Shown here: in pieces, positions 21,860-34,481 of the stretch | Numbering within the stretch: the stretch's first letter is position 1 | Layout of the letters: every line of letters begins with the position of its first letter | NCBI RefSeq assembly: GCF_014396975.1 | Contig: NZ_CP060719.1 | Coordinates: 745,501-809,500, forward strand | DNA: 64,000 bases | Reading direction: 5' to 3' | Origin: Thermomonas carbonis | Lineage (GTDB): Bacteria > Pseudomonadota > Gammaproteobacteria > Xanthomonadales > Xanthomonadaceae | Program-made: the position numbers and the translations under genes | The notes under the pieces: model-generated | The model's input: the letters and a program-made list of their open reading frames with translations, nothing else | Database searches by the model: none | What the model was told of the DNA's origin: nothing

Positions 21860-22405
21860 ATGGGGGAAGCCCGCACACCGGTCGCTGGCGCCGGCAACGC
21901 CCGATACGATGCGCAATTCGAGCGCCTGTACGACCAGCTTCACAGCCTGGCGCGGCGTGAACTCGGCGACTCCGCGCGCACTTCGCTCGACACCACGTCG
22001 CTGCTGCACGAAGCCTTCCTGAAACTCGGCGACAGTTCGCCGGACTTCAGCGATCCCGGTCATCTGCTCGCCATCGCCGCACGCGCGATGCGCTTCGTGC
22101 TGGTCGATCATGTGCGTGCACGGACCGCCGACAAGCGCGGCGGCGGCATGGAGCGGGTGCCGCTGCTGACCGACCTGGCCGAGGACAGCGGCCCCGACCT
22201 GGCCAATCTGCTGGAGATCGACCGCGGCCTGGGCGCCCTGCAACAACTCGAGCCGCGCCTGGTCAGCGTGGTCGAATGCCGCTACTTCGGCGGCATGGAG
22301 TTTCCCGAGATCGCAGGCGCGCTGGGGATCAGCGAACGCACCGCACAGCGCGACTGGCGGCGCGCGCGCGCCTTCCTGCAGGTGTGGTTCGGAGAAGCCA
22401 CATGA
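21860..22405 (+). CDS. ECF sigma factor, TIGR02999/Sigma70_ECF type (module 1)
   Basis: The 181-residue protein has sigma region 2 (about 20-100) and a region 4 helix-turn-helix ([20 protein letters not shown] then SERTAQRDWRRA). It directs RNA polymerase to specific promoters. In region 2.2 the usual acidic run (DAEDLVQE-like) is replaced by LDTTSLLHE, with Thr45, Thr46 and Ser47. In ECF43-type sigma factors such as Vibrio EcfP, the lost charges are restored by kinase phosphorylation. No anti-sigma gene is present; instead a Ser/Thr kinase gene overlaps the stop (ATGA). The probable target is the adhesin gene downstream. Confidence 0.9.
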   Translation: MGEARTPVAGAGNARYDAQFERLYDQLHSLARRELGDSARTSLDTTSLLHEAFLKLGDSSPDFSDPGHLLAIAARAMRFVLVDHVRARTADKRGGGMERVPLLTDLAEDSGPDLANLLEIDRGLGALQQLEPRLVSVVECRYFGGMEFPEIAGALGISERTAQRDWRRARAFLQVWFGEAT

Positions 22406-24657
22406 CACAAGCACCGAACGATCCGGAGCGCTGGCGGCGGCTGTCGGCGCTGTTCGAGCAGGCGGTCGACCTGCAGGACGATGCCCGCGATGCGTTCCTG
22501 CGCGCACTGCCGGACAGCGATGCCGCGTTGATCCCGGAACTGCGCGCGATGCTCGCCGCCGACGATGCCGATGCCGCACTCGACGGACGCGTCAACGTGC
22601 CTGCCGGCGTGCAGGCACCGCTACCGCCGCATGCCGTGGGCACGGTGCTTGGTGCGTGGAAGCTCGACGGCATCCTCGGCCAGGGCGGCATGGGCGTGGT
22701 GCATGCCGCGCACCGCGTCGACGACTTCGAACAGCGCGCCGCAGTGAAATGCCTGCAGCAGCGTTGGGACGGCCGGTTGCAGGCCGGGCGCTTCCTGCGC
22801 GAGCGCAACATCCTGGCCGGCCTGTCGCATCCCAATATCGCGCGCCTGCTCGACGCCGGCATCGACGCGCATGGCCAGCCCTGGTTCGCGATGGAGCGCA
22901 TCGACGGCCTGCCGATCGACGCCGATGCGGACCAGCGGCGGCTCGACCTGCGCGCCCGCGTGCGCCTGTTGCTGCGCGTCTGCGCGGCCGTGCAGCACGC
23001 GCACGAACGCTTCGTGGTGCACCGCGACCTGAAGCCCGACAACCTGCTGGTGGATGGCGACGGCAATCCCAAGGTGCTCGACTTCGGCGTGGCCAAGCTG
23101 CTGGAGGCCGATGCCGGCCAGGCCACGCGCACCGGCCTGCCCGCGGCGTTCACGCCCGACTACGCCGCGCCCGAACAACTCGACGGCGGCGAAATCACCG
23201 CTGCCACCGACGTGCACGCGCTGGGCCTGGTGCTGTATCGCCTGCTGACCGGCGGCATGCCGTACGCGCTGGACGGCCGCAGCCTGCCGGAGCGCATCGC
23301 CGCGATCAGCGGGCAGGCGCCGATGCGCCTGGAACAGGCGCTCGCGACTGGTGATGCGAACACGGTCGACAAGCGCCTGCACGACCGCAGCACCGATACC
23401 GGCAGCTTCCACCGCTTCGTCGGCGGCGACCTCACCCGCATCCTGCAGACCGCGCTGGCCAAGGAACCGCAGCGACGCTATGCCACCGTGCAGGCCTTCG
23501 CCGCCGACCTCGAACGATTCCTCGATGGCCGGCCGGTCTCGGTGTCCGGCGACACCCGTGCGTACCGCGTCCGCAAGTTCGTGCAGCGCAATCCCTGGGG
23601 CAGCGCGTTCGCGGCGATGCTGTTCGCCACCGCGATCGGGTTCGGCGTATATGCCACGGTGACCGCCAACCGCATCGCCCGGCAGGCCGAACAGGTCGCC
23701 GCCGAGCGCGACCGTGCCCAGGCCATCGCCGATTTCCTCGGCAAGTTGCTGGCGCAGGCAGACCCTACCCGCGCCGACAGCGACCTTACCGCCAGCCAGA
23801 TGCTCGAACGCGGCACCACGCTGGTCGACCAGGACGAATCGCTGGGCATCGCCGAACGCGCCGCGGTGCTGACCGCCATCGGGGGCGTGTACCAGGTCAA
23901 GGGCGACTACCCGCGCGCGTTGCCGGCGCTGCAACGCGCGGTGACGCTCGGCCGCGAAGCAGGGGCACCCGACCTCGCCTTCGCCAGCAGCCTGCTGGAA
24001 CTGTCGAAGGTGCACACGCGACTGGGACAACTCCCCGATGCCGAAGCGCGCGCGCGCGAAGCGGTGTCATTGCTGGAACGCCTGGCCGCGGGCGATGCCG
24101 AACACGCCAGCGGGCTGAGCCAGCTGGCGGTGGTGCTGAGCGAGCAGGAGCGACTGCCGGAAGCCACCGCCTTGCTGGAGCGCGTCGTAGCGCTGCGCAG
24201 CACGCTGCCCGATGCCGCCACCGACCAGAACCTGGCCGCCAACTACAACAACCTGGCGTTGAACCTGGTCGAGCTGGGCCGCCCCGCCGAAGCCGAGGCC
24301 GCGTACGACGCCGCGCTTGCCATCCTCGAACGAAAGTTCGGCCCCGAGCATCCGTACGGCGCGTTCCTGCGCGGCAGCCGCGCGGAGCTGCACGAACAGC
24401 GTGGGGACGCCGTGCGCGCACGCGAGGATCTGGAGCGTGCGCTCGCCATCGCCAGCAAGGCGCTGGGCGCGGAGCACCCGTTCGTCGCCGACGTCAGCGA
24501 CCGGCTGGGCCGGATGGCGATCAAGCGCGGCGACACCGAAGTCGCACGCAAACACCTGGAACATGCCCTGCGGATCCAGCAGGACACCCTGCCGGCGGGC
24601 CATGCGGACATCGCCCGCACCCGCGAGGCGCTGGCCTCGCTCGACGCCATGCCCTGA
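22402..24657 (+). CDS. Transmembrane Ser/Thr protein kinase with TPR domain (module 1)
   Basis: The 751-residue protein has a short N-terminal helical region, then a Hanks-type kinase (about 82-370): glycine loop LGQGGMG, Lys116, HRDLKPDN with Asp209, DFGVAK with Asp227, YAAPEQ. All catalytic residues are present. A single membrane segment at about 398-420 is followed by TPR-like repeats (about 450-745), which would sit in the periplasm. The gene overlaps the sigma factor gene by 4 bp and precedes an adhesin gene, so the kinase probably controls the sigma factor. The TPR domain may sense an envelope signal; that part is inference. Confidence 0.9.
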   Translation: MTQAPNDPERWRRLSALFEQAVDLQDDARDAFLRALPDSDAALIPELRAMLAADDADAALDGRVNVPAGVQAPLPPHAVGTVLGAWKLDGILGQGGMGVVHAAHRVDDFEQRAAVKCLQQRWDGRLQAGRFLRERNILAGLSHPNIARLLDAGIDAHGQPWFAMERIDGLPIDADADQRRLDLRARVRLLLRVCAAVQHAHERFVVHRDLKPDNLLVDGDGNPKVLDFGVAKLLEADAGQATRTGLPAAFTPDYAAPEQLDGGEITAATDVHALGLVLYRLLTGGMPYALDGRSLPERIAAISGQAPMRLEQALATGDANTVDKRLHDRSTDTGSFHRFVGGDLTRILQTALAKEPQRRYATVQAFAADLERFLDGRPVSVSGDTRAYRVRKFVQRNPWGSAFAAMLFATAIGFGVYATVTANRIARQAEQVAAERDRAQAIADFLGKLLAQADPTRADSDLTASQMLERGTTLVDQDESLGIAERAAVLTAIGGVYQVKGDYPRALPALQRAVTLGREAGAPDLAFASSLLELSKVHTRLGQLPDAEARAREAVSLLERLAAGDAEHASGLSQLAVVLSEQERLPEATALLERVVALRSTLPDAATDQNLAANYNNLALNLVELGRPAEAEAAYDAALAILERKFGPEHPYGAFLRGSRAELHEQRGDAVRAREDLERALAIASKALGAEHPFVADVSDRLGRMAIKRGDTEVARKHLEHALRIQQDTLPAGHADIARTREALASLDAMP

Positions 24658-24752
24658 CGCGACGCCGGCGTGCGGCGGCCGTGTCGCCTTTCGCCGCCCT
24701 TTTCCGATCCATGTGCGCCCGGTAGTCCACCGGCTTGCCCAGGAGAGGAACC

Positions 24753-27700
24753 ATGCGTCACTTCAAACACGATCCGCGCCGCCATCACCCCCGCAGGAGC
24801 GCGCTCGCGCTGGCCCTGTTGCTGGCCTGCGCCGCGATGCCCGCATGGGCCGGCGATGTCTGCGACGGCTCCAACGATGCCGGCGAACAGACCCTCGACA
24901 GCACCGCAACCGGCACCGATGCGGTTGCCTGCGGCCACGACAACGATGCCAGCGGGCAGGCAAGCAATGCCTTCGGCTACACCAATACCGCCAACGGCAT
25001 GTTCAGCAATGCCTTCGGGCGCTTCAACCTCGCCAGCGGCGGCCACAGCAGCGCCTTCGGCAACAGCAACAGTGCCAGCGGCGCAGACAGCAACGCCTTC
25101 GGCTACGTCAATACGGCCAGCGGCGAAGGCAGCTCAGCGGTCGGCTACCAGAACAATGCAGATGGCGAAGCAAGCAATGCGTTTGGCGCCCGCAACACCG
25201 CCGCCGGCAGCGGGAGCAATGCGTTTGGCGTGATCAACGAGGCGAGCGGCGACTACAGCAGTGCCGTCGGCTACATCAACGTCGCCAGCGGCTTCAGCGC
25301 CGGCGCTTTTGGATCCTCCAACACCGCAAGTGGTGATGCTGGACATGCCATCGGCTTCGGCAACACCGCCAGCGGACAGAGCAGCAGCGCATTCGGCCAC
25401 GGCAACACCGCCAGCGGCGATTACAGCGCCGCGTTCGGTGCCGTCGCCACGGCAACCGCCCAGAGCAGCCTGGCATTGGGAACCTGGCTAGACCGCGACG
25501 GCGACGGATCCATCGCCCTCGACCTCGATACCGATGGCGATGGCATCAACGATGCGTCCTCGGAAACCGCCGTCGCCAGCGGCTTAAACGCGGTATCGGT
25601 CGGAGCTGGCGTGGTCGCCAGCGGCTTGAACAGCAGCGCCTTCGGCGTGGACAACACCGCCAGCGGCGCAGCCAGCTACGCGTTCGGCGGCAGCAATACC
25701 GCCGGCGGCATCGACAGCAACGCCTTCGGCCGCGGCAACGAGGCCAGCGGCGGCTTCAGCACCGCGTTCGGGCGATTCAATCTCGCGATCGGTAGTTTCA
25801 GCAGCGCATTCGGCGCCAGCAACCGGGCCGAAGGCTCCGACAGCAGCGCTTTCGGTTACGGCAATGTCGCCAGCGGCGACGAAGCCGGTGCATTCGGCTG
25901 GGAAAACACCGCCAGCGGCGAGTCCAGCAGCGCTTTCGGCTACAACAACGCCGCCAGCGGCGAAAACAGCAGCGCATTCGGTTACAGCTCGCAGGCACTG
26001 AACATCGGCAGCACCGCGATCGGCTACATGGCCATCGCCGACCGCGACTATTCGGTGTCCGTGGGCAGCGCCGGCAACGAGCTGCAGATCATCCACCTGG
26101 CCGACGGCACCGAAGACACCGACGCCGTCAACCTGCGCCAGCTCAACGCCGCCATTGCCGGCGTGGCCGCGGGCGACAGCCCGTACTTCAAGGCCGATGG
26201 CCCCGCCGACGGTTCCGACGATGCGCAGGCCAACGGCGCTGGTTCCGTTGCCGTTGGTCCCGACGCGGTGGCCGACGGCGAGCGATCCATCGCCGCCGGC
26301 TACTCGACCTCCGCCGGCGGCCTGCACAGCAGCGCCATCGGCTACTACAGCACTGCCAGCGGCCATGAGAGCAGTGCGCTGGGCTTCGCCAACGACGCCA
26401 ACGGCGACAACAGCAGTGCGGTCGGCAACAGCAACACGTCCGAAGGAGATTCCAGTAGCGCGGTCGGCCATTTCAACTACGCCAGCGGCGATGAAAGCAG
26501 TGCCTTCGGCACCGACAACGAGGCCTCCGGCTCCCAGAGCAGCGCCTTCGGCTTCGATAACAGCGCTGTCGGCGACTACAGCAGCGCGTTCGGCTGGTTG
26601 AACTCCGCCACCGGCGTGGAAGCGAGTGCCTTCGGCTTCGCCAATGAAGCCTCTGGCTATGCGAGTTCGACCGTTGGCCGAAGCAACCAGGCCAGCGCTG
26701 ACGACAGCAGCGCGTTCGGCAACGCCAATGTGGCCTCAGGTTCGCGAAGTAATGCCTTCGGTTTTGGCAACCAAGCCAGTGGCAATGAAAGCAACGCGCT
26801 GGGCAATGAAAACCACGCCAGCGGCCGGCGCGGCAGCGCCGTCGGTACCGGCAACGAGGCTAGCGGCGACGACAGCAACGCCTTCGGCCAAGGCAATACC
26901 GCGAGCAACGAAAACAGCAGTGCATTCGGCATGTTCAATACCGCCAGCAGCGTCGATAGCAGCGCGTTCGGTTACGACAACACCGCCAGCGGCGAGCGCA
27001 GCAGCGCCTTCGGCTACCAGTCGCAGGCACTCAACTACGGCAGCACCGCAATCGGTCACCAAGCGGTGGCGGACCGCGACTACGCAGTCTCGGTGGGCAG
27101 CGACAACCGCCTGAGCCAGATCATCTACGTTGCAGACGGCACCGAGGACACCGATGCGGTCAACGTGCGCCAGTTGAATTCCGCGATCATGTCGGCCGGT
27201 GGTTTCGCAGACCTGTCCGGCTTCGCCAATGCGTTCGGCGGTGGCGCCGGCTGGGCGGGCGGGATGTTCACCGCGCCGACCTTCACCATCCAGGGCAACA
27301 ACTTCAACGACGTGGCCTCCGCGTTCGCCGCGGTGGATTCGCAGCTGACCCTGCTGGCGGGCAGCGTGGGCGGTCCGGCCGGCCCCGAAGGTCCGCAAGG
27401 TCCCGAAGGTCCAGCCGGCCCGGCGGGTCCGGAAGGCCCGGCAGGTCCAGCCGGCCCGCAGGGGCCCGAAGGTCCGGCCGGTCCGGCTGGCCCACAGGGG
27501 CCGGCAGGGCAAGACGGCGCCGACGGTGCCGATCCGGCCTACGTGGATGCCGGCGATGCCGCCACCCTGGAAGCGGCGAATGCGCACGCCGATGCCGGCG
27601 ATGCCGCCACCCTCGAGGCCTCGACGGCGTACACCGATGCCAGCGCGGCCGACACCCTGGCCGCGGCCAACGCGCATGCGGACGCCGGCGACGCGGCCAC

Positions 27701-28085
27701 GCTGACCGCATCGAAGTCCTACACCGACAGCACCGCCACGCAGACGCTGGCTTCGGCCAAGTCGTACACCGATGCCAAGTTCGCCGCCTGGAACGACACT
27801 TTCACCCAGTACCAGCAGCAGGTGGATCGCCGCTTCGCGCAGACCGACACCCGCATCGACCGGATCGGCGCGATGGGCACGGCGATGACCCAGATGGCGG
27901 TGAACGCGGCCAACGGCCGTTCCGAGAAGGGCCGCATCGCGATCGGCGTCGGCGCGCAGGGCAGCCAGGGCGCGGTGTCGATCGGCTACGGCAAGCGCAT
28001 CGGGGACCGCGGATCGTTCTCCCTCGGCGCTTCGTTCGCCAGTGGCGAGAGCTCGGTGGGTGGCGGCTTCGGCTTCGACCTGTAA
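24753..28085 (+). CDS. YadA-type trimeric autotransporter adhesin with collagen-like tract (module 1)
   Basis: The start has a clear AGGAGAGGA ribosome binding site. The 1,110-residue product has a signal peptide (cleavage after AWA-33), a mature tip [13 protein letters not shown] with Cys37 and Cys60, a first head of 14-residue YadA repeats (about 60-430), a neck ([16 protein letters not shown], ~451), a second head (about 505-770) and a second neck (~794). Then come 18 Gly-X-Y triplets (874-927), five 15-residue coiled-coil repeats ([15 protein letters not shown] type) and a YadA C-terminal beta-barrel anchor ending [22 protein letters not shown] insert in head 1 (~248-268) looks calcium-binding. 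Such proteins form surface trimers for adhesion, autoaggregation or biofilm. Confidence 0.93.
24924..27060 (+). repeat. Degenerate 42-bp repeats encoding the YadA head, adhesin 1
   Basis: A 14-residue unit of the type [14 protein letters not shown] is repeated through two head blocks (about 24924-26010 and 26280-27040), separated by the first neck. The nucleotide copies are degenerate but recombination-prone. The pattern is the left-handed beta-roll of YadA heads. Confidence 0.85.
27372..27533 (+). repeat. Collagen-like Gly-X-Y tract, adhesin 1
   Basis: Eighteen uninterrupted Gly-X-Y triplets, mostly Gly-Pro-Ala, Gly-Pro-Glu and Gly-Pro-Gln, end in GQDGADGAD. The 9-bp DNA units are GC-rich. 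The tract lies between the second neck and the coiled-coil stalk. Confidence 0.95.
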
Positions 28086-28126
28086 GTCCACCGACGGCTG
28101 GGCAAGCCGGGCACAGGGACGTGCAG

Positions 28127-28155
28127 CGGGAGCGGGCAACCGCTCCCGTTTTTTT
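28127..28155 (+). terminator. Rho-independent terminator of adhesin 1
   Basis: CGGGAGCGG-GCAA-CCGCTCCCG is a perfect 9-bp stem followed by seven T. It ends the module 1 transcript about 40 bp after the stop. Confidence 0.95.
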
Positions 28156-28264
28156 GACGATGTCGTGGATGCCCGGGGATCCACAGATGCTCGATCACGT
28201 CGATCCGGATCCAACGTGCGTGGCTTCGCGAAGGGCATTCTCGCGTCGCTGGTAGGATCGGCCC

Positions 28265-30352
28265 ATGGACAGTGATCGCTGGCAGCGCTTGCAGAACGCA
28301 CTGGGTGCGGCCGTGGATTGCCCCGTCGACCAGCGCCCGGCACTGATCGACCGTCTCTGCGCAGGCGATCAGGGCTTTCGCTCCGAGCTCGAATCGCTGG
28401 TGCGCGAGTGGGATGCAGACCCGGGTTTCCTCGAACGACCGCCCGATATCGGTGCCCCGACCTTCGAGCTGCCGGAGGATGCCGACCCGCTGCTGGGCTG
28501 CGGCGTCGGCGCGTGGACGATCGTGCGCCGCATCGGCTCCGGCGGCATGGGGTCGGTGTACCTGGCCGAGCGCAGCGACGGCGGCTTTGCGCAGCAGGCT
28601 GCGATCAAGATCATCGCCCGTGGGCTGGAATCGGCCGATCTGGTTGCGCGCTTCACCACCGAACGGCGGATCCTGGCTGCACTCGACCATCCGAACATCG
28701 CCACCCTGCTTGACGGCGGCGTCACCGCGGACGGGCGGCCCTGGTTTGCGATGCCCTATCTCGAGGGCGCCCAACCGCTGGACGCCTGGTGCGACGACCG
28801 GCGGCTGCCGCTCGCCGGCCGGATCGACCTGCTGCGTCAGGTCTGTGGCGCGGCGCAGTTCGCGCACCAGAATCTCGTCGTTCACCGCGACATCAAGCCG
28901 GCCAACATCCTGGTCACCCCGCAGGGAACGCCGATGCTGATGGACTTCGGCATCGCCAAGCTGCTCGACCGACCGGGTCAGGACCAGACCGCCACGCAGA
29001 TCTACACGCCGCAGTACGCCAGCCCGGAACAACGCAGCGGCGCGCCGGTGACCACGGCCAGCGACATCTACCAGCTCGGCATCCTGTGCTACCGGCTGTT
29101 CTGCGGCGAGCTTCCCTTCGACGGCAACGGGCAGGCAGCGGATGCGAACGCCGCCAAGCCCTCGGAGCGCGTCACCGCCGCGGCCGCTGAGCTGCGCGGC
29201 GAAACCGAACATGGCCTGCGCCGCCGATTGCGCGGCGATCTCGACACCATTTGCCTGCACGCACTGCGCTTCGACCCCCAGCGGCGCTACCGTTCCGCGG
29301 AAGGCCTGTCGGACGATCTCAAGCTGCACCTGCGCGGGCTGCCGGTGGACGCGCGACCGGACACCTTCCTGTACCGGGCAGGCAAGTTCCTCAACCGCAA
29401 CCGCTGGAGCGCATCGCTCACGGTGCTGCTGATTGCCGTTGCGCTCGGCTTCGGCGTGTTCGCGTCGCAGACGGCCTCGCGCATTGCCCTGCAGAGCGAT
29501 GCCCTGCGCACCGAGCGCGACCGCGCCGAGATCACCGCGCAATTCCTGACCCGGCTGTTCGAGCAGGCCGACCCCACCCGCGCGCAGCGCGACATCACCG
29601 CCGGCGAAATGCTGCAGCGTGGACTCGAATTGCTCCAGGACAGCGATACGCTGCGCGATGGCGAGCGGGCGGCGGTGCTGACCGCCGTCGGCGGTGCCTA
29701 TCAGGCCCGCGGTGAATGGGACCGCGCCCGCAGCGTGCTCGCCGACGCGGTGGAAACGGGACGCCGAGCCGGCCTGAGCGGCAAGCCACGCAGCAACAGC
29801 CTGCTTGAACTGTCGAAAGTGGAATACCGCCTCGAGAACTACGCGGCATCCGAGCGTCTCGCACGCCAGGCGCTGGCGGCGCTCGATGGCGCGCTGGATG
29901 TCGAGCCCAACGATCGCACCAGCGCGCTCAACCAGATCGCGCTGGCGCTCAGCGACCAGGATCGCCTCGACGAGGCGGCGGTGCTGCTGGAACAAGTGGT
30001 GGCGCTGCGGCGCAGCCAGCCCGGCGCCGACACCGACCAGAACCTCAGCGCCAGTCTCAACAACCTGGGCATGACCTACATGGAGCTGAACCGGCTCGAC
30101 CGCGCCGAAGCCGCGTTCGTGGACTCGCTGGCGATCATCGAACGACGCTTCGGCCCACAGCATCCCTATGGCGCCTTCGTGCGCGGCGGTCGCGCCAGCC
30201 TGCATGAGCAACGCGGCGATCTGGAGCTGGCGCGAAAAGACCTGCAGGATGCCGAGCGCATCGCCACCAGCACGCTCGACGAGGGTCACCCCTTCATCGC
30301 CGAGGTGCGCCAGCGGCTGGAACGCATGTCTCCCGGTGGCGATTCGCCATGA
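28265..30352 (+). CDS. Transmembrane Ser/Thr protein kinase with TPR domain (module 2)
   Basis: The 695-residue protein is laid out like the module 1 kinase: helical N-terminus, kinase (about 84-350) with glycine loop IGSGGMG, Lys115, HRDIKPAN with Asp209, DFGIAK with Asp227 and YASPEQ, one membrane segment (~379-402), then TPR-like repeats expected in the periplasm. The catalytic set is complete. The two kinases match most around the membrane-proximal segment (QADPTRA) and the TPRs. The stop overlaps the ECF gene start (ATGA), so here the kinase precedes its sigma factor, the reverse of module 1. Confidence 0.9.
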   Translation: MDSDRWQRLQNALGAAVDCPVDQRPALIDRLCAGDQGFRSELESLVREWDADPGFLERPPDIGAPTFELPEDADPLLGCGVGAWTIVRRIGSGGMGSVYLAERSDGGFAQQAAIKIIARGLESADLVARFTTERRILAALDHPNIATLLDGGVTADGRPWFAMPYLEGAQPLDAWCDDRRLPLAGRIDLLRQVCGAAQFAHQNLVVHRDIKPANILVTPQGTPMLMDFGIAKLLDRPGQDQTATQIYTPQYASPEQRSGAPVTTASDIYQLGILCYRLFCGELPFDGNGQAADANAAKPSERVTAAAAELRGETEHGLRRRLRGDLDTICLHALRFDPQRRYRSAEGLSDDLKLHLRGLPVDARPDTFLYRAGKFLNRNRWSASLTVLLIAVALGFGVFASQTASRIALQSDALRTERDRAEITAQFLTRLFEQADPTRAQRDITAGEMLQRGLELLQDSDTLRDGERAAVLTAVGGAYQARGEWDRARSVLADAVETGRRAGLSGKPRSNSLLELSKVEYRLENYAASERLARQALAALDGALDVEPNDRTSALNQIALALSDQDRLDEAAVLLEQVVALRRSQPGADTDQNLSASLNNLGMTYMELNRLDRAEAAFVDSLAIIERRFGPQHPYGAFVRGGRASLHEQRGDLELARKDLQDAERIATSTLDEGHPFIAEVRQRLERMSPGGDSP

Positions 30353-30933
30353 GCGGACACATCACGCGCCTGCTGTACGAGGCCAGCGGCGGCAATCGCG
30401 ACGCCCTCGATGCGCTGATGCCTCTGCTTTACGCGCAATTGCACGATGCCGCACACCGGCAGCTGCGCGGCGAACGCGCCGGCCACACCCTCGACACCGC
30501 CGCACTGGTCAATGAAACCTATCTGCGGCTCGCCGCGCAAGAGCGCGCGCAGTGGCAGAGCCGCGTGCAGTTTCTTGCGGTGGCTTCGCTGGTCATGCGT
30601 CGCGTGCTGGTCAACCACGCCAAGCAGCGCAATCGGCACAAGCGCGGCGGCAGCGGCGAACCGCTCACCCTGGGCCATGCGCAGCACGTTGCCGCCGACA
30701 CTCCCGAGGTGGATGTCGAGGCGCTCGATCAGGCGCTGGACCGGCTTGCCGAGATCGACGCCCGCGCGGCCCGTGTCGTCGAATGCCGCTACTTCGGCGG
30801 CCTGGACATCCACGAAACCGCCGAAGCCCTCAACATCGCGGCCGCCACCGTCAAGCGCGACTGGGTGCTCGCCAAGACCTGGCTGCGGCGCGAACTGGAA
30901 GGCGGCGCTGGAGCACCCGAACCGGCGGCCTGA
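30349..30933 (+). CDS. ECF sigma factor, TIGR02999/Sigma70_ECF type (module 2)
   Basis: The 194-residue protein has sigma region 2 (about 5-100) and a region 4 HTH ([20 protein letters not shown] then [13 protein letters not shown]). As in module 1, region 2.2 lacks the acidic run and reads LDTAALVNE with Thr50 at the position aligned with Thr45 of the other sigma factor. It is coupled to the kinase gene by a 4-bp overlap. No anti-sigma factor is present. The likely target is the adhesin gene downstream. Confidence 0.9.
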
Positions 30934-31139
30934 ATGCGGCAACGCTGCGCCCGCGCCGGGCGTGGCATTGCATGGATGAGCCTTTTTCTCCCCGACTGTT
31001 GCGTCTCTTGTTGAACGGCCTCTCTTGGCCGCCGGCCCGCAACCGATCGGAGATCTCCATGCAAACGTCGCAACTTCCCGTGCACGCACCACGGCGTCAA
31101 GCCGCCGACCGCCCCGCAGCTTCCAGCGGAGGGCGGCTC

Positions 31140-34100
31140 ATGAACCGGATAGACGAGTCGGTATCGAACCCGGCGCTGGCCGCCCCGGCGGTGGCATCGG
31201 AATACGCTGGACGACGACGTGACGTGTCGGGATCGCGGCGCTCGGCCCTGGTCGCCGCCGTCTGTGCCGCGCTGGCGCTCGGCTTGTGCGGACCGGCCGT
31301 TGCCGGCGATGTCTGCGACGGCTCCAACGATGCCGGCGAGCAGGATCTCGACAGTACGGCAGATGGCTTCGATGCCGTCGCCTGCGGCAGGGAAAACGAG
31401 GCCAGCGGCTTTGGCAGCATCGCATTCGGCACCGATAACATTTCCAACGGAGGACACAGCAACGCGTTCGGCTATACGAATATTTCCAGCGGCGCGATCA
31501 GCAACGCCTTCGGTGTCCTCAATGAAGCCACCGGCGACAACAGCAGCGCGTTCGGTTTCAACAACACGGCCAGTGGTGAAGACAGCAGCGCCTTCGGCAA
31601 CGGGTCGAACGCACTGAATGTCGCCGCCAGCGCGTTTGGCCTCAACAACCTGGCCAGCGGCTTGCGAAGCAACGCCTTCGGCGGGGAAAACACCGCCAGC
31701 GGTGAAAACAGCGGCGCCTTCGGTTACGACAATACCGCATCCGGCCCTGCCAGCGCCGCCCACGGCTTCGGCAACAGTGCTACAAGCTTTTCTGGCATTG
31801 CTTTCGGGTCCAGAAATACCGTCAGCGGCCAATCCGGTGGCGCGTTCGGCATTGACAACACGGCGGAGGGCATCAGTAGCGGCGCGTTCGGCATCGACAA
31901 CACGGCGGCGGGGACCAGCAGCAGTTCTTTCGGCACCCGAAATCTGGCTTCGGGGCTCTTCAGCAGTGCCTTCGGGTACGAGAACACTGCCAGCGGCGAG
32001 CTCAGCACCTCGTTCGGCTCTTTGACCATTGCCAGCGGCATTCGCAGTAGCGCATTCGGGCATCAGGCGCAAGCGTTGAACTTCGGCAGCACTGCGATCG
32101 GCTACATGGCCATTGCTGACCGCGACTATGCAGTATCGGTGGGCAACAGCAGTCGGCTGAACCAGATCATCTACCTGGCCGACGGTACCGAGGACACCGA
32201 TGCGATCAACCTGCGCCAGCTCAATGCCGCCATTGCCGGCGTTGCAGTGGGCGACAACCCCTACTTTCAGGCGAATGGCGCTGGCGACGGCAGTGACGAC
32301 GCGATCGCCAGCGGTCTCCAATCGGTAGCCGCCGGTGTCTATAACGAGGCCAGCGGCGAGCAGAGCAGCGCATTGGGCGGGTTCAACGAGGCCAGCGGTG
32401 TTGGCAGCAGTGCAATCGGCCGTGAAAACCGGGCGAGCGGAGAAGACAGCAGCGCGTTCGGCTCCACAAGCAGTGCATTCGGAATTTCCAGCAGCGCTTT
32501 CGGCTATACCAATCATGCGACGGGGGACTACAGCACCGCAGTTGGCTACGACAATTCGGCAGAAGGTCCATACAGCAGCACCGTCGGTGCGTTGAACCTC
32601 GCCACCGCTGACTACAGCAATGCTTTCGGCACGTCCAACGTCGCCAGTAGCGGGTACAGCAGCGCCGTTGGCGTCAGCAACATTGCCGGTGGCGCGGAGA
32701 GCAACGCCTTCGGCGCCTTCAACGAGGCCAATGGCGAGAGCAGCAGCGCCGTCGGCTACGGAAACGCCGCCACCGGCGACGACAGCAGCGCCCTCGGCAA
32801 CGACAACGATGCCTCCGGCTCCGAGAGCAGTGCCTTCGGCGTCGGAAACGTCGCCGATGGCGGGCTCAGCAGCGCCTTCGGCTACGAAAACGCCGCCACC
32901 GGCAGCGACAGCAGCGCGTTCGGCTACGGCAACATCGCCAGCGGGATCTACAGCAGCGCCGTCGGCAACGCAAATACCGCCATTGGGGCCTACAGCAGCG
33001 CGTTCGGCTATTTCAACACGGCCAGCGCTGACTTCAGTAATGCTTTCGGCTCGTACACCGTCGCCAGTGGCGGGAACAGCAGCGCGTTCGGTTATTTCAA
33101 CACCGCCAGCGGAAGCTACAGCAGTGCTCTCGGCGCCGGGAATACTGCCAGCGGCACCATCAGCGCTGCCGTCGGCTACAGCAACACCGCCAGCGGCGGC
33201 GGCAGCAACGCGTACGGCTCCGGCAATGTCGCCAGCGGCGAATACAGCAGCGCCTTTGGCCACCAGAGCGAAGCACTCAACATCGGCAGCACCGCCATCG
33301 GTTACCAGGCGGTGGCCGACCGCGACTACGCGGTCTCGGTGGGCAGCGACAGCCGCCTGAGCCAGATCATCTACGTCGCCGACGGCACCGAGGACACCGA
33401 TGCAGTCAACGTGCGCCAGTTGAACTCGGCGATCATGTCGGCCGGTGGGTTCGCCGATCTGTCCGGCTTCGCCAATGCGTTCGGCGGCGGTGCCGGTTGG
33501 GCGGGCGGGATGTTCACAGCACCGACCTTCACCATCCAGGGCAACAACTTCAACGACGTGGCCTCGGCATTCGCGGCGGTGGATTCGCAGCTGACCCTGC
33601 TGGCCGCGAATGTCGGTGGCCCGGCCGGTCCCGAAGGTCCGCAGGGTCCCGAAGGCCCGACCGGTCCGACCGGACCCGAAGGTCCGGCAGGTCCCGCAGG
33701 CCCGACCGGCCCCGAAGGTCCCACGGGTCCGACCGGTCCCGAAGGTCCGGATGGTCCGGAAGGCCCCGCGGGTCCGCAAGGCCCGGAAGGTCCCGCAGGC
33801 CCGCAGGGCCCGACAGGTCCACAGGGCCCGGCCGGGCAGGATGCCGACATGAGCCAGGTGGCGCAGATGGTCGAGGACGGCGACGCGGCCACGCTTGCAT
33901 CGGCCAATGCCTATGCGGATGCCGGCGATGAAGCGACGCTCGCTTCGGCCAATGCGCATGCGGATGCCGGTGATGCGGCGACGCTGTCCGCATCCATGGC
34001 GCACGCCGACGCCGGTGATGCGGCCACGTTGACCGCATCGAAGTCCTACACCGACAGCACCGCCACGCAGACGCTGAGCTCGGCGAAGTCGTACACCGAT

Positions 34101-34412
34101 GCGAAGTTCGCCGCCTGGACCGACACCTTCACCCAGTACCAGCAGCAGGTGGATCGCCGCTTCGCCCAGACCGATACCCGCATCGACCGGATCGGCGCGA
34201 TGGGCACCGCGATGACCCAGATGGCGGTGAACGCGGCCAACGGCAACAGCGAGCGTGGTCGCATCGCGATCGGCGTCGGCGCGCAGGGGAGCCAGGGCGC
34301 GGTGTCGATCGGCTACGGCAAGCGCATCGGGGACCGCGGATCGTTCTCCCTCGGCGCCTCGTTCGCCAGCGGTGAGAGCTCGGTGGGTGGCGGCTTCGGC
34401 TTCGACCTGTAG
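31140..34412 (+). CDS. YadA-type trimeric autotransporter adhesin with collagen-like tract (module 2)
   Basis: The ATG at 31140 follows GGAGGG and gives 1,090 residues; an ATG at 31059 would add 27. The n-region is long (about 37 residues) before the hydrophobic signal core, ending [10 protein letters not shown]. The mature tip repeats the GDVC...AVAC cysteine pair of adhesin 1. Head 1 is shorter than in adhesin 1, head 2 longer. Necks lie at ~345 and ~746, 25 Gly-X-Y triplets at 827-901, five 15-residue coiled-coil repeats, and a barrel anchor almost identical to adhesin 1. The leader between 30934 and 31139 is 206 bp; I find no clear promoter in it. Confidence 0.93.
31400..33290 (+). repeat. 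Degenerate 42-bp repeats encoding the YadA head, adhesin 2
   Basis: The same 14-residue beta-roll unit as in adhesin 1, in two blocks (about 31400-32080 and 32290-33270). Unit counts differ between the two genes, so repeats have been gained or lost. Confidence 0.85.
33618..33842 (+). repeat. Collagen-like Gly-X-Y tract, adhesin 2
   Basis: Twenty-five Gly-X-Y triplets without interruption. Gly-Pro-Thr is common here but absent in adhesin 1. It is seven triplets longer than the adhesin 1 tract. Confidence 0.95.
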
Positions 34413-34453
34413 TTCCACCGACGGCTGGGCAAGCCGGGCACAGGGACGTGCGA

Positions 34454-34481
34454 CGGGAGCGGGCAACCGCTCCCGTTTTTT
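34454..34481 (+). terminator. Rho-independent terminator of adhesin 2
   Basis: The same 9-bp stem and GCAA loop as the adhesin 1 terminator, followed by six T. The whole ~70-bp 3' leader between stop and terminator is nearly identical in the two modules. Confidence 0.95.

Follow-up and report, generated by a model that had tools for sequence, protein, structure and literature searches.

The locus

The DNA analysed here is a stretch of 64,000 nucleotides from Thermomonas carbonis (contig NZ_CP060719.1, positions 745,501 to 809,500 of the forward strand; hereafter the window). Its subject is two adjacent three-gene modules, in each of which a YadA-type trimeric autotransporter gene is accompanied by genes for a Hanks-type kinase and an extracytoplasmic function (ECF) sigma factor; the three probably work together as a switch for the adhesin. 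A preliminary description had claimed six genes paired by family, and their coordinates, plus-strand orientation and domain matches were all confirmed (Table 1). In a profile search both sigma factors scored above the curated cut-offs for PF07638 and TIGR02999, models that we take to stand for ECF43 sigma factors. A domain search found Sigma70_ECF in both sigma factors, Pkinase and tetratricopeptide repeats (TPR) in both kinases, and YadA_head (PF05658), YadA_stalk (PF05662) and collagen in both adhesins. The catalytic motifs of the kinases seem intact by eye, and a single hydrophobic segment was judged by eye to be present in kinase1. Each sigma gene adjoins a kinase gene, and the 4-bp overlap described for both modules is an ATGA at each junction. 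The gap before the adhesin is 95 nt in module 1 and 206 nt in module 2, measured to the ATG at 31140.

When the C-termini of the five adhesins of this genome were scanned as 200-aa pieces, YadA_anchor (PF03895) was found in 5/5 (best E=9.5e-8; 23.6 bits for adhesin1 vs a cut-off of 22.7); in the domain search with the full-length window adhesins it was reported for neither at E<=0.001. The C-termini also gave a weak match to the solved YadA anchor structure 2LME (E=0.0012), so that head repeats, stalk, anchor and this match liken the proteins to YadA-type adhesins. For adhesin1 an alternative start is possible, a TTG at 24735. The start of adhesin2 is uncertain, the gene caller having picked GTG 31224; by eye, a ribosome site and an N-terminus resembling an extended signal peptide favour the ATG at 31140. 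A terminator had been described after each adhesin, and a hairpin followed by a T run was indeed seen at both. A scan gave 9 terminator-like sites vs 8.3 in shuffles, so the count by itself is meaningless; the two adhesin terminators have the longest stems among the nine and are near-copies of one another.

Table 1. Features of the two modules, in positions of the window.
Feature	Position	Strand	Description
sigma1	21860..22405	+	ECF sigma factor, 181 aa; PF07638 E=6.8e-37; TIGR02999 159 bits vs cut-off 126
kinase1	22402..24657	+	Hanks-type Ser/Thr kinase with C-terminal TPR repeats, 751 aa; Pkinase E=5e-38, TPR_12 E=7.8e-39
Predicted sigma1 promoter	24682..24708	+	TGTC-N17-TCCGAT, 44 nt 5' of the adhesin1 ATG
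adhesin1	24753..28085	+	YadA-type trimeric autotransporter, 1110 aa: head repeats, stalk, collagen-like segment, YadA anchor
Intrinsic terminator 3' of adhesin1	28125..28155	+	11-pair stem (28125-28150) and T run
kinase2	28265..30352	+	Hanks-type Ser/Thr kinase with TPR repeats, 695 aa; Pkinase E=1.6e-38
sigma2	30349..30933	+	ECF sigma factor, 194 aa, 3' of kinase2; PF07638 E=1.1e-45
adhesin2	31140..34412	+	YadA-type trimeric autotransporter, 1090 aa
Intrinsic terminator 3' of adhesin2	34452..34481	+	11-pair stem (34452-34477) and T run; near-copy of the first terminator

To the left, the modules are flanked by genes for an S-formylglutathione hydrolase and a class III alcohol dehydrogenase, and to the right by what is presumably a phosphoenolpyruvate carboxylase gene.

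Linkage of sigma-kinase pairs to adhesin genes

The host genome (3.46 Mb, a single contig) contains 12 matches to PF07638, 9 of them strong, and relatives of the adhesins at five places. All five places adjoin a sigma-kinase pair; three further modules therefore exist besides the two of the window, and five of the nine strong sigma matches adjoin an adhesin. Loci outside the window are given below as L numbers and other genomes as G numbers. The layout sigma-kinase-adhesin is found in module 1 and at L025 and kinase-sigma-adhesin in module 2, while at L023 and L024 the adhesin is divergent from the sigma-kinase genes; the second pair at L023 and the pairs at L026, L027 and L028 have no adjoining adhesin. 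The fifth adhesin (L025:5301-5951), next to its own sigma-kinase pair, is a mini form of 216 aa with stalk and anchor, in which no head was seen. Genes outside the window were predicted with a simple codon-usage gene caller trained on 14 visually chosen open reading frames of the window, of which one or more are doubtful, and starts and some small genes are uncertain. In 54 of all 61 sigma calls the kinase gene follows on the same strand; the order kinase-then-sigma occurs once, in module 2.

In the genus, 18 of 25 genomes have the adhesin anchor type and 24 have PF07638 sigma factors at E<=1e-12 (66 sigma factors). Of 47 anchor matches, 6 were second pieces of genes already counted and were set aside; a sigma gene of this type lies no more than 8 kb from 25 of the remaining 41 (0.9 expected). 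These 25 are spread over 12 of the 18 anchor-bearing genomes, and 23/66 sigma genes have an adhesin at that distance. Tandem adhesins share one sigma factor, so these matches are not independent. Throughout the family (247 genomes, with at most 13 candidates scored per genome), the anchor was found in at least 154 genomes and such sigma factors in at least 215, mostly 1 to 4 each. From the best-scoring anchor matches we assembled 80 adhesin regions, namely 28 of the 31 genus loci outside the host genome and 52 regions from 37 genomes of other genera among the matches listed (8 loci overlapping genus genomes were not counted again), and fractions of the 80 are not unbiased rates. Sigma factor and kinase are both present in 28/80 regions (15/28 in the genus and 13/52 in other genera), the selected regions of other genera comparing with 0.59 expected with a sigma gene; one of these, L147, has it five genes away. 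A kinase without a sigma factor was found in 3/80. Adhesin and sigma-kinase pair are divergently transcribed in 16 of the 32 linked loci, a count that takes in the host genome, which means that the linkage is not only an operon effect.

Other regulators also adjoin these adhesins. Within three genes, sigma factor and kinase were found in 27/80 regions and a 7TMR-DISM histidine kinase with a LuxR-type response regulator in 10/80 (L092, L098, L103, L111, L117, L118, L123, L142, L159 and L160), two of which, L117 and L118, have both systems. A subtilase of the S8 protease family lies within two genes in 28/80 regions, in other genera between L124 and L167 (for example L145:8762-10615), and 14/80 have none of the neighbours sought. 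Histidine kinases, response regulators and S8 proteases were named with profiles built from 3, 3 and 5 proteins, and Pfam was used to check 3, 3 and 1 of them, respectively. These neighbour counts indicate that the adhesin family is not tied to sigma-kinase genes, yet the linkage is far above chance.

Several further observations concern the surroundings of the sigma genes. At L027, L088, L096, L097, L101, L109, L114, L119, L179, L180 and L185 the sigma gene lies one to five genes from tamB, which encodes part of the TAM complex that helps autotransporter assembly; at L179 and L180 no kinase was called within two genes. A second autotransporter kind is a GDSL-lipase autotransporter divergent from the sigma-kinase pair at L168:8976-10892 and L169:8282-10186 (PF03797, scanned in L168 only). 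The pairs of L026, L170-L178 and L187 form an 11-row clade with no adhesin nearby, often beside a 270-aa gene that in L026 seems to resemble mutM; this type of pair may be the common ancestral copy in the genus. In another genus, a gene with a Thiol_cytolysin match (L116:5001-6746; E=2.3e-12, 46.9 bits vs a Pfam cut-off of 25) lies near an adhesin-sigma-kinase unit.

A promoter-like dyad upstream of the adhesin genes

De novo analysis of 22 representative upstream regions yielded the two-block motif [AG]TGTC-N17-T[GC]CG[AC]AT with a score of 75.8 vs 43.0-48.5 in 6 dinucleotide shuffles. The threshold was the 99th percentile of the dyad score in 900 other genes. It was exceeded by 21 of 44 adhesins with a sigma-kinase pair, among them four of the five in the host genome (adhesin2 fails). 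None of the 8 adhesins with a histidine kinase and none of the 25 with an S8 protease passed (0/33 together). L117 and L118, with both systems, were tallied as sigma-kinase loci, and 2 of 27 S8 adhesins were dropped for lack of upstream sequence. Two of 20 other adhesins scored above the threshold; one, L112, is on a 7-kb contig, where neighbours have possibly been lost. The sigma and kinase genes themselves rarely have the dyad (1/61 and 2/60, respectively), and a role of the dyad as autoregulator of the sigma-kinase operons was therefore not seen. When the motif was relearned with one clade left out, in runs that took a blurred version of the complete motif as their starting point, adhesins of the omitted clade fell into the top 5% of other genes in 2/2 cases for c3, 7/8 for c4, 1/1 for c5 and 4/4 for c6.

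A wider regulon was sought with the general pattern RTGTC-N17-YBCGMAT, which has 13 matches in the host genome, 12 at or inside predicted genes and one (L194) without a surrounding gene call. None is at an adhesin; the pattern misses the five adhesins of this very genome and is thus a poor probe. A scan of the region for consensus sigma-70 promoters gave 1 site vs 1.1 expected and was uninformative.

The gene of an RCC1-repeat protein between kinase and adhesin in L136 (4700-6121) has the top dyad score among the 900 other genes and is a possible second target. Near the sigma-kinase genes at L108:1215, L110:14406 and L184:4310 are genes for small proteins that look secreted and have an RCGG stretch in common; these genes carry the upstream element TGTCCGGT...TTTCCGCTA, which a similar gene in L104 does not have.

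The predicted promoter of module 1

In a tree of 59 sigma factors (61 calls less two pieces of a stop-containing gene in L186, which entered neither tree nor alignment), sigma1 groups with L116, L126 and L137 (support 100/99), each adhesin-linked and each from a different genus other than Thermomonas, and kinase1 groups with the same three relatives (SH-aLRT 100). Upstream of the adhesins of all four members of this clade, c1, in four genera and two gene orders, lies TGTC-N17-TCCGAT, of which the copy in module 1 is the sole exact match in the 3.46-Mb genome. The genomes of the three relatives have 1, 2 and 3 exact matches, one of them in each case at the adhesin. A shared dyad of this size did not arise in 1000 shuffled sets; shorter ones arose in 2/1000 sets for 4+5 bases and in 8/300 for 4+4. 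Free-gap identity of the upstream regions was uninformative and was replaced by columns anchored on the motif. In this alignment 11 of 27 inner columns are invariant, 10 of them being the dyad by construction, and around the dyad 5/120. Within the window, a search for the dyad with one mismatch gave 2 matches vs 3.3 expected, that is, chance level, so that only the exact genome-wide match was used. Together, these findings on the c1 site are the best indication that sigma1 serves adhesin1 and little else.

Comparison with characterised ECF43 systems

Two characterised systems resemble the modules. In EcfK-PknS of Xanthomonas citri, too, an ECF43 sigma factor lies beside a Hanks kinase that spans the membrane and bears a TPR-rich domain in the periplasm, and the sigma factor switches on neighbouring surface-acting machinery, as we propose here (PMC13147305, PMC8999054). 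That machinery is a type VI secretion system, unlike here, where the targets would be single trimeric autotransporters, with five modules in this one genome. PknS phosphorylates T51 of EcfK, a residue of region 2.2, and linker sites; T51A alone still works, and linker T106 matters (PMC13147305). In EcfP-PknT of Vibrio parahaemolyticus, the sigma factor is inactive until the neighbouring kinase phosphorylates a threonine of region 2.2, which gives the charge needed to bind RNA polymerase (PMC8999054). This pair governs a polymyxin-response regulon, and in the text consulted an adhesin is not named among its targets (PMC8999054), unlike what we propose here. Threonine is present at the T51 position in 88% of ECF43 members, so exceptions exist (PMC13147305). 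In our alignment of the 59 sigma factors, 57 have threonine in this column, among them sigma1 with Thr46 (LDTTS), and the other two, sigma2 and L156, have alanine.

Type VI clusters without EcfK/PknS carry other regulators, including a two-component system (PMC6653060), a swap that would parallel the exchange of neighbours seen at the adhesins. In the titles and abstract beginnings searched, which come from few subscription journals and so make for a weak absence, we found no trimeric autotransporter tied to an ECF sigma-kinase pair. We judge that ECF43-like signalling may here be applied to a new use, the control of single trimeric adhesins.

Interpretation and alternatives

The data are best explained, with a probability of roughly two-thirds, if each module is a one-signal, one-adhesin switch operated by a kinase-activated sigma factor. 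The transmembrane Hanks-type kinase, with its TPR domain facing outward, would sense an envelope or surface cue and phosphorylate the partner ECF sigma factor, which would then bind RNA polymerase and open a private promoter (TGTC, 17 nt and a clade-specific -10 box) before one trimeric autotransporter gene. We infer kinase-to-sigma signalling from the characterised relatives, and regulation of adhesins by the sigma-kinase pairs from the genomic comparisons. The phosphorylation itself, the direction of control, the membrane topology, the signal and, for module 2, the entire chain are likewise put forward as predictions. In its full form, for which we put the odds somewhat below even, this scheme would give the cell five private kinase-sigma channels that each answer to a separate signal, use a separate promoter code and control a single trimeric adhesin. 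The -10 box (TCCGAT for sigma1) would then have changed along with its sigma factor, so that the adhesins could be displayed singly without cross-talk. The tamB neighbourhood of many such sigma genes hints that some kinases may also sense autotransporter assembly.

A number of results weigh against the proposed switch. The preliminary description had named related genomes with adhesins but no sigma-kinase genes as an outcome that would contradict it, and this is in part what was found, neither gene being present in 49 of the 80 adhesin regions, most of which are accompanied by a two-component system or by an S8 protease. The dyad scores below the threshold at 23 of the 44 sigma-kinase adhesins, and the training set of the motif contained 22 of the 44. 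In the leave-clade-out runs, the top 5% was reached by 1/4 adhesins of c1 (module 1), a clade that requires its own -10 variant, by 0/1 of c7 and 2/5 of c8, and by 2/3 of c2 (module 2 and its kin), the window's own adhesin not among them. The exact c1 site also has 2, 1 and 5 matches in G003, G001 and G192, respectively, none at an adhesin position that was located; 4/4, 2/3 and 3/4 of the sigma factors of these genomes were placed in the tree, and no member of the sigma1 clade was seen. Module 2 is the weaker case. Neither dyad scoring nor the leave-clade-out runs found a TGTC-type promoter there, and weak look-alikes picked by eye were dropped. Unlike EcfK, its sigma factor has no T51 equivalent (LDTAA, with alanine at this position); we do not file sigma2 as an ordinary ECF43 member, and its activity may depend on linker sites or need no phosphorylation at all. 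The idea of a sigma-kinase-adhesin unit gains from the linkage above chance, the divergent loci and the promoter dyad, and loses from the lack of a promoter of the shared type at module 2.

In both window modules all three genes share one direction, with short gaps before the adhesin, as would be expected if they were co-transcribed from a promoter before the first gene with none at the adhesin. The divergent adhesins of half the linked loci do not fit such read-through, nor does a dyad directly before adhesin1 and many of the divergent adhesins, and we regard it as rather improbable, though less so for module 2. Even less credit is given to the view that sigma-kinase pairs and adhesins are neighbours without functional ties that share insertion hot spots, for example beside tamB. 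Several modules do adjoin tamB, and the regions that lack both genes are in its favour. Against it, the linkage recurs at four separate loci in one genome, the dyad is found at linked adhesins and not at those beside histidine kinase/response regulator or S8 genes, and four genera share the sigma1-clade site despite their differing gene order. The dyad might also reflect mere shared ancestry of the DNA upstream of adhesins rather than a sigma-specific promoter, since orthologues within the genus are related by descent and the counts are not independent. We consider this just as improbable as the hot-spot view: related adhesins beside the other two regulator types do not have the dyad, the columns around it are not conserved in the sigma1 clade, and a good match stands before the unrelated RCC1-repeat gene of L136.

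The origin of the two modules is a separate matter, compatible with the proposed switch. The preliminary description had argued from the swapped gene order that no simple tandem duplication took place, and for a recent one this holds: sigma1 and sigma2 are 38% identical and kinase1 and kinase2 46%, the gene order differs, and close kin of sigma1 occur in three other genera. These identities and tree placements mean that the modules are old or separate, and module 2 may have been either rearranged or gained independently. An old tandem duplication with later inversion of the sigma/kinase order is unlikely, though less so than the alternatives above. Kinase2 branches, weakly supported (SH-aLRT 79), next to the kinase1 clade, a tree in which sigma2 joins the sigma1 clade is not rejected (p-AU 0.18), and the 3' ends of the adhesins and their terminators are near-copies (93% identity in the final 350 bp, 66-86% deeper into the genes, and 87.5% in the 80 nt after the stop codons). 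The similar ends also fit gene conversion, which they suggest to us. Sigma2 itself is a long branch elsewhere in the sigma tree, in an eight-row part (91/86) that includes L028, L114 and L119, sigma factors with divergent or convergent kinases; another of this kind, from the second pair of L023, is in a wider 18-row clade. A single clade of all adhesin-linked sigma factors was rejected (p-AU 2.25e-50), so the linkage arose or was lost several times.

To our knowledge, little is known about how trimeric adhesins are switched on. If the proposed switch is correct, phosphorylation-activated ECF sigma factors would gain a new class of target, and T. carbonis would offer a compact, testable set of parallel sigma-promoter pairs within one cell. 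The sigma1 promoter, unique in the genome, makes one adhesin case directly testable, and the histidine kinase and LuxR-type regulator beside the same adhesin family would permit the study of rewiring to another type of signalling.

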